The position numbers and the translations under genes were made by a program. Below the pieces are notes generated by a model. The model had not been told where the DNA came from. It saw only the letters and a program-made list of their open reading frames with translations, and ran no database searches. A stretch of DNA of 64,000 nucleotides, from positions 24,302,313 to 24,366,312 of the forward strand of contig OW028585.1 of NCBI GenBank assembly GCA_932294295.1, in the 5' to 3' direction. This document shows, one piece after another, positions 17,225 to 20,200 of this stretch. The first letter of the stretch is position 1. Every line of letters begins with the position of its first letter. This DNA comes from Alitta virens (Eukaryota; Annelida; Polychaeta; Phyllodocida; Nereididae).

Positions 17225-20200
17225 TTAGGCAATGGTTCCAAAAACAGGGTTATGACGACAAATTGCAGGCCCATGCTCATCATAGTCGGCTTTTGTGTGG
17301 CAGACCTGGTAAAATTCAGGCTGGAAAAAGAAAAAGAGAAAACAAATTGACAACATCCATGCAACAACAAACAATGACAGACAACGATGTACACAACAAC
17401 ACAAACTAAAGGGAATAAAAGTGGAGAAGGAAGGTTGCGTGGTTTGATCTAGGTTTATAATGGGCCCCATCAATGTTGCTGATCAAGCAGATATAAAGCC
17501 TAAATAGAGTAGTTTCCTGTAATTTGGCTTATAAGTGACACACTGTCAATATGTACACCTATCTTGTGTGGTATTTTTGGTAGGTATAAATGTCTCCGTT
17601 CCAGTGGCAGGCAAATCCGGCATCTCCTACTGTGTATTGCGTTAGGTTGAATTATACACCCTGTACCCCTTGAATTGAAATGGTTATAACCCATCCAGCA
17701 TTTATTTCTTCAAAAATCCCATTCAAGAGATTCATGAGGTATGTTGAAAATGAATAATGCTAGACTTATTCTTAAGCACAGTTGCATTTCTTAAATACTA
17801 TGACATGCCCATTGACCTATGTCACATATTCAGCATCTTGTTGCCGGGCATTTAAGCCATCCTCTTTCTTCATATTTTTTCAACCTTGGACAACGGATTG
17901 GTATAACCTTGTTGTGGAATATGCAGGATTGAAAAAAAAAGACTGCAAAGGAGAGGAAATGAATTGGACCTGAAACTAAATTTTACCAAAAAGAATATTC
18001 ATGCAACTAACAAGGAAATTAATAGCCAAAAGGATGCTATGCTCAAACACATGCAATCAGTGTTGGATGGTTAAACATGCACAACCTGCAAAAAGAAGAA
18101 GATGCAGTTCATGCTCTGCTAACTAAATATAGCACAAGAAGTGAAAGACAACGCACTGATTGACGTCAGACGATGACACGATCCTTGTGCCGCAAATTTA
18201 GCACACAAAAGAACATGGCTGGGCCCAGTATCTTCCTCAACTAAACAGCTATTTCAATTTTTGACATACAACACATGCTGCACACCAAGTTTTCTGAAAA
18301 AGTTAATGACCTAAACACAATGCAATTACAGAACTGTAGAAACATAAAATACATAACCCCTTTGAAACAAGACGTTTAATAGCAAATTAATAATTCAAAA
18401 AATTCCCTATGAACAGAAATATATATCTTTGAGCGAATAAATAAAAAATATGGCATTTTACCCATAAATAACGTCATCTTACATGGGTTTCTTTTGACCT
18501 ACACATAAGTTTGGATTTAGTTAAAGGCCAAAAAATCATGAGGGTCTAGGATGATTTATCCACAAAATTTATATCATGTACATTTGACAAATCAGACCAC
18601 ATCGGCATATATGTTGACCTCACTGTAGAACAGCACAATTGTCAACCCGCAATCACTGGCCTAGGGCTTTCAACTGGATGAGACGTAACATTTCACAATT
18701 CATTCTACAACTGCACACTTAACATGTGAATTGCAAGAACACTTCAGCAAACTTTTTTTGCGCAATTTGGATAAATTTAACAGAATAAGTGTTAGTATTT
18801 GCTACATAATAGCAGTAGACAAAAGCACCCTCTGCTATGTTTTCAAAACAATATTCAACCAGACAGAGGACAATAATATCATAAGAGATCCAAATTCACA
18901 GATGCCAAACACAGGCTGTCCCTCTCTATGTACATAATAAGCACATACAAATACGCCTAAAGTGGAATCTTAACTAGGAGAGGGTGCAAAAGGTTGGACA
19001 TCTTGGCAAAATTCTGTAGTCAGCTGCTCGAAGACCTTGCATGAAGTCATCCACATTTTGCACTCCAGTCGCACACCAATGAGATGATATGGTACATTAA
19101 TTTACAGGAAACAATGATATACATCAGGCCTAATTAATTGGTTAGCTAGTTAAACAAGCATCATCACGTTAATATGCCAAACAAAGGATTGTGCCTAAAT
19201 ATTCCGGGGCCATGTTCATCATAGTCTTTTTTGGTGTGGCAAACTGTGTAGAACTCAGGCTGAAATTCAATGCAACAGTTTCCAGATGTTAAAATCACTT
19301 GTGAAAATGTTCTTCTTTCACAAAAACATTGCAGGAAAACTGTACTAATTTAAACATCACACAAAAACATTTTCAATTATGGCAATAAAAAAATAAAATA
19401 AATTACCTTTTTCGCAAACAATCAAGCGCAAAGGAAGGTGGTAAATAAAGCAAAATAAACGAAACTCACACAAAGACAAAATCGGAACCAAGCATGTAAT
19501 GACTGCTGTCTAACGGTTAAATACGCCATGTTGCAATAGTGGCCAGGCTTTCACAAGGAACGGAAAAGCCAGCACTGGAAACATTGTGCACTTTCAATTC
19601 AACCAATGGAGCCGGAGTCCAAAAGGCATACAACTCAACATTTGCCAAAATGGACTTCATGGGATTTCTGTTGTGAGAGGCTGCTTACTTTATGCAGTCC
19701 CTGGTCTGCACTGTTTACACTAACATTACGGTGCGTCCTGTGGTACCAGACCATGTTAGTCCTGCTGAAGAGAGAGCTGCAGTAACTGACGGTCATCATG
19801 ATGGATGAATCAAGATGGTAGTTAATTTGCCAGAGGCAGTTTATTTAGTGTATAATCCCATTTAAACCTTAGTCATTAACAAAATCACTTCCAAGCAATA
19901 AACTGGAGCTTTTAGTTTGAATTAGGGACCAACCCATGCCCAACTGACTTCACGTCATATGTCAGCAATATATCAACTGACCCTTAAAAAAGTCCACATG
20001 AGACATCCATTGTTTCTTAGGCTTATATTCTTGACCATGAACAATTAAAATAAGCATGCTTTGAGAAAAGTTGGCAAGGCACTTATCAAAAGATGAAATG
20101 ACAACTACCATTCCATTCAATGCGTCACATGCACACTAAAAACTACACCTCTGGAGGAAAAAATCCGCAGTCAAACTCTACTTCGAATGAAAGATATGCA

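Follow-up and report, generated by a model that had tools for sequence, protein, structure and literature searches.

The window analysed here, a 64-kb stretch of DNA from the annelid Alitta virens, contains a complete ARP3 gene on its minus strand. Its product, Arp3, is a core component of the complex by which actin filaments are branched. The gene is composed of 10 shared exons (28991 to 21027) and two alternative last coding exons. Exon 1 carries the ATG (28948-28991) and is followed by exon 2 (26845-27025), exon 3 (26387-26497), exon 4 (25901-25996), exon 5 (25525-25632), exon 6 (24881-25024), exon 7 (24068-24241), exon 8 (23569-23661), exon 9 (22181-22306) and exon 10 (21027-21110), the last shared exon, after which comes the donor gtgagt. 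Joined in frame at AG/GT boundaries, the shared exons encode 387 residues, and 332 of these are identical in bovine Arp3. Splicing either last exon onto them gives a 418-residue Arp3. The predicted product matches 1k8k_A (E 4.8e-255) across residues 1-417, including the C-terminal extension, which identifies it as an Arp3.

Several other features surround ARP3. A RING finger protein gene (32486-33190, minus strand; zf-RING_2, E 7.5e-12) lies upstream on the same strand, and a further upstream exon of this gene is likely near 33560-33657, as read by eye. An open frame with a sulfotransferase domain is found at 7758-8513 on the plus strand (PF00685, E 3.7e-18). Retroelement fragments are present at 13722-14165 (minus strand), with an RNase H-like domain of reverse transcriptase, and at 49558-50220 (plus strand), with an RVT_1 domain. 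The frames at 14196-15140 (minus strand, no Pfam match) and 51603-52049 (plus strand) look retroelement-like by eye. A 364-residue open frame at 546-1640 (minus strand) has no Pfam match. No Rfam families or tRNAs were detected in the 64-kb window.

The proximal alternative last coding exon, 11A, is located at 19164-19259 on the minus strand and ends in TGA. The distal exon, 11B, is located at 17225-17320 on the same strand and ends in TAA. The first-pass annotation had described the last ARP3 exon as present twice in tandem, in phase 0 after an AG and with a stop of its own each time, and this description holds. Each exon is 96 nt long, follows a CAG, continues the protein from MLGCT into PEFY, and remains intact to its own stop, encoding a 31-residue tail. 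Structurally, 11A and 11B are tandem duplicated alternative last exons, being homologous, in tandem and in the same phase, each with an acceptor and a stop. They are identical at 66 of 96 bases and 23 of 31 residues. The residue differences listed earlier are correct for TV/QV, GIF/AIC and LFGILT/VFGTIA (11A/11B); KKDY/ADY should read KKDY/KADY.

Both tails match residues 388-417 of bovine Arp3 in a PDB search (E 1.2e-13 for 11B and 8.9e-12 for 11A). When the distal tail was used as the query against all six frames of the window, the best ungapped scores were 182 (itself) and 141 (11A), followed by 26 and 19. Because 141 stands so far above the next best score of 26, the resemblance is not due to chance. 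The contiguous homology covers the exon and six acceptor bases only (an 89-nt repeat at 74%). The flanks of the two exons contain only short, weak direct repeats, none of them adjoining the exons; one example is 36 nt at 75% (18606-18641 and 20288-20323; core BLAST E 0.039), and these repeats are taken as chance.

No further ARP3 fragments were detected in the window by tblastn, where each of the other exons was found once and the remaining matches had E values of 2.7 or worse. Since the homology ends with the exon and its acceptor, and since there is no other ARP3 fragment in the window, the terminal exon alone would have been duplicated. The heavy divergence of the synonymous sites indicates that the event is old, and leads to the prediction that related species outside the genus have it too. 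Thus, as judged by sequence comparison, the pair arose long ago by tandem duplication of just the terminal exon and has been retained as coding sequence.

Remnants of gene copies are common in animal genomes, and 11A might be such a remnant, whether of a processed copy or of another ARP3 gene in tandem, or a duplicate created by assembly or by alleles. Such an origin is very improbable. The similarity begins at the exon border with the acceptor, the preceding 60 nt encode no ARP3 residues, and every other ARP3 exon has its single tblastn match. A 66/96 identity is too diverged for an allele or assembly duplication. The retrocopy, the second-gene remnant and the allele artefact were rejected on these three lines of evidence, namely border, tblastn and divergence.

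Comparison with bovine Arp3 over residues 388-417 bears on the date of the duplication. In this region, 11A and 11B share 23 of 30 residues, 11B and bovine share 24, and 11A and bovine share 22, so that all three are at roughly equal distances. Both tails have D401 and H403, where bovine Arp3 has E and I. These shared residues point to a duplication after the split from vertebrates, and the dating, which uses bovine as its one outgroup, suggests this order. Some bovine-like residues are found in one exon only: Q392, C408 and V413 in 11B, and K398 in 11A. Because 11A keeps K398 where 11B has A, 11A is not simply the decaying copy. In a contig scan of prokaryote genomes for relatives of isoform B, 16 stretches fit a pattern and none was confirmed.

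Selection on the pair was assessed over the 31 sense codons of 11A and 11B. The nucleotide differences are distributed 6/5/18 over codon positions 1/2/3, and five of seven fourfold sites differ. A pairwise codon model took its F3x4 frequencies from the shared exons, and kappa was set to 1.5 or 2.5. The likelihood of omega peaked at the lowest value tried, 0.005. Among the values tried, those within 3.84 units of 2dlnL extended up to 0.1 with kappa 1.5 and up to 0.05 with kappa 2.5. An omega of 0.525, which is roughly the mean expected with one free and one constrained copy, was worse by 2dlnL 20.35 (kappa 1.5) and 21.89 (kappa 2.5). Neutral simulations let one copy drift to 29 differences by substitutions only, without indels, while the other was fixed or changed at synonymous sites only (four settings, 20,000 runs each). 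The open frame survived in 35-43% of these runs, and an open frame together with 23 residue identities was obtained in 0 of 80,000.

Neutral decay of one last exon was rejected on the simulations and on the poor fit of omega 0.525. Together, the simulations and the codon model imply that selection preserved the protein sequence of the pair during most of its history after the duplication. The pair has been under purifying selection, as an average since the duplication and in a comparison confined to the two exons themselves. The earlier claim of two maintained C-termini is the best reading, because 11A is intact and shares in the purifying selection seen in the pairwise model and the simulation. 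Both last exons are probably functional.

The signals around the exons bear on how they might be chosen. The proximal exon had been noted for its weaker polypyrimidine tract. The difference itself is real, with 10 of 20 pyrimidines at 11A and 19 of 20 at 11B, the most pyrimidine-rich of the gene's 11 acceptors, but the tracts of shared exons 2, 6 and 7 are equally weak (11/20, 9/20 and 11/20). For this reason, the weak 11A acceptor is compatible with a regulated choice but is no proof of one. No other AG occurs within 36 nt upstream of the proximal acceptor AG. A TTTTAAC about 30 nt upstream of this acceptor could serve as its branch point.

Candidate poly(A) signals for 11A are an ATTAAA at 18375-18380, followed by GT-rich sequence, and an AATAAA at 17701-17706, both on the minus strand. 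Past the distal stop, six AATAAA/ATTAAA motifs at 16049-16606 (minus strand) are candidate 3' ends for 11B, and three more lie beyond them, down to 14500. Poly(A) motifs are not enriched between the exons, where two occur in 1.84 kb, compared with 123 on the minus strand of the 64 kb (69 AATAAA and 54 ATTAAA). Four copies of TGCATG, the Rbfox motif, lie between the last exons on the minus strand (17363, 18005, 18055 and 18081), and one of them starts 43 nt upstream of 11B. Their enrichment is not significant, as four are reached by 7% of first-order Markov shuffles and in 7 of 311 sliding windows. The RNA around 11A folds no more strongly than shuffled sequence does (z 0.64; matched by 143 of 200 shuffles). 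Positions 18650-18671, between the last exons, and 16131-16152, beyond 11B, form a 22-nt inverted repeat with 91% complementarity, and no link between this repeat and exon choice was found. An imperfect tandem repeat at 17340-17405 (period 29, 2.2 copies) starts 20 nt upstream of 11B.

The weak acceptor (10/20 pyrimidines) and the lack of poly(A) enrichment downstream would also fit a recently abandoned 11A. In that case, the exon was functional for a long time, is now unused or rare splicing noise, and does not yet carry lesions. This is improbable. The frame, phase, acceptor and stop are all intact and there is no indel, neutral drift across the whole divergence is rejected, and three shared ARP3 exons have tracts that are just as weak.

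The first-pass annotation had placed the C-terminus near the barbed-end groove. The available literature sharpens this remark, in that the C-terminal tail of Arp3 is described as an autoinhibitory switch lying in the groove (PMC4947185, PMC8810855). In yeast, deletion of the last 10 residues, or replacement of two pins by Asp, leads to higher activity in the absence of activator (PMC4947185). Roles are given there to the tail residues R441 and N442 and to the pins L445 and F446 (PMC4947185). Yeast 441/442 were equated here with 409/410 by counting, without alignment, and yeast has N where residue 410 is H. V413 and F414 are the corresponding pins in mammals, and it is through them that Arpin locks the tail (PMC8810855). 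The C-helices of activators sit in the Arp3 groove (PMC8810855, PMC12592476). The helices of N-WASP and Coro7 displace the tail; in the Coro7 case, residues 415-418 (GVMS) seem to be shifted out of place and to lack order (PMC12592476). At the branch junction, density near Arp2 and ArpC4 can accommodate the tail, and residues from 405 on were repositioned by the modellers (PMC7755917). The available text of PMC10918085 contains nothing on the Arp3 tail.

The two tails differ at residues 392, 398, 406, 408, 413, 416, 417 and 418. Six of the 13 residues from 406 on differ, compared with two of the 18 before it, a marginal concentration (one-sided Fisher p 0.037) at a boundary chosen after the structure papers; when the last 10 residues are set apart instead, the counts become 4/10 and 4/21. 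Both tails retain R409, H410, N411, F414 and C394. The pin pair 413-414 is LF in 11A and VF in 11B, and residue 408 is F in 11A and C in 11B. Both tails therefore have the sequence features of the autoinhibitory switch, with hydrophobic pins at 413 and 414 and the base residues R409 and H410. With the LF pair of yeast in tail A and the VF pair of mammals in tail B, both look like working versions of the same switch, at the level of sequence, rather than one working and one broken version.

It is also conceivable, though rather unlikely, that both exons are used and that their tails are functionally equivalent. Choice would then matter for regulation only through the different 3' UTR, by altering the stability or localisation of the mRNA or its control by microRNAs. 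Any switch of last exon brings a different 3' UTR with it, and the residue changes are mostly conservative (L/V, I/L, T/A and G/A). The tail also varies between species, with 24/30 and 22/30 residues matching bovine Arp3, and at several positions the two exons depart together from the bovine residue, so the differences between 11A and 11B could be near-neutral. Equivalence is opposed by the six of 13 switch-segment residues that differ, including pin 413 and the F for C at 408. Moreover, selection holds the protein sequence, whereas a pure UTR role needs only a working Arp3.

The explanation preferred here as a whole, which we consider likely, is that ARP3 acquired two alternative last exons, with different autoinhibitory tails, when its terminal exon was duplicated long ago. 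Both exons would be transcribed. In isoform A, exon 10 would be spliced from the donor after 21027 to 19259, and the transcript would end within the following 1.8 kb. In isoform B, 11A would be skipped in favour of a splice to 17320. Recognition of 11A and early 3' end formation would compete with skipping to the strong 11B acceptor. Such competition is plausible, as 11A needs an acceptor and a downstream 3' end; the candidate signals for that end are no commoner than elsewhere on the strand. The case for two protein isoforms is built on gene anatomy and selection. The autoinhibitory tails of the isoforms would diverge from about residue 406 on, at pin 413 and residues 416-418 among other positions. 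Arp2/3 complexes could then differ in resting activity or in their response to WASP-family activators, Arpin and coronins. That the tails differ in switch strength is suggested by their position in the known structure, and the odds of this are close to even but short of it. A shade more tentative is the proposal that the choice of last exon swaps the Arp3 switch, giving from one gene two Arp2/3 complexes unequal in resting activity and in how sensitive they are to activators and to Arpin or coronins, possibly in a tissue-specific manner.

If this is true, the lineage has no single fixed Arp3 tail, and splicing joins paralogous genes as a means of tuning a nucleator. Earlier work on the tail used deletion and substitution by aspartate, both of which release it (PMC4947185). 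If both natural, intact tails are made, they would form a matched pair differing in the switch alone.

No report of alternative last exons in Arp3 was found among the listed titles and abstract openings of open-licence PMC papers, which is weak evidence of absence. The known class is that of tandem-duplicated terminal exons; what appears new here is its occurrence in ARP3. In human, 236 tandem duplicated exon substitution events are described, of which 77 are C-terminal (PMC9741552). This C-terminal class resembles ARP3 in its tandem homologous exons, equal phase, conservative changes and old origin (PMC9741552). Use of one exon per transcript, which marks that class, is a prediction for ARP3. 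A word search did not find ACTR3 in the main text of that paper, whose gene tables lie outside it (PMC9741552).

Other likenesses come from cytoskeletal genes. Tropomyosin (TPM1, Tm1, lev-11) also has tandem duplicated 3' exons encoding homologous C-termini, which evolved independently in several lineages (PMC9741552). Tropomyosin is a filament-binding protein with three such exons; ARP3 encodes part of a nucleator, has two of them and varies in its inhibitory tail. A striking parallel is found in Aplysia californica, where WASP exons 11A and 11B are homologous alternative exons in the same pathway as Arp3 (PMC3298513). Those exons are internal, mutually exclusive and in an activator, unlike the terminal exons of ARP3, and the functional idea put forward for them is called speculation by the authors (PMC3298513). 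Mammalian Arp3 and Arp3B are likewise two Arp3 forms, in complexes that build branched networks of different behaviour (PMC8193582). They are encoded by two genes and are 91% identical, with differences along their length and Met293 as the key residue (PMC8193582), whereas the annelid forms would come from one gene and differ only in the last 31 residues. If both are made, the exon pair would offer, through splicing, an alternative to the two-gene Arp3/Arp3B solution of mammals.
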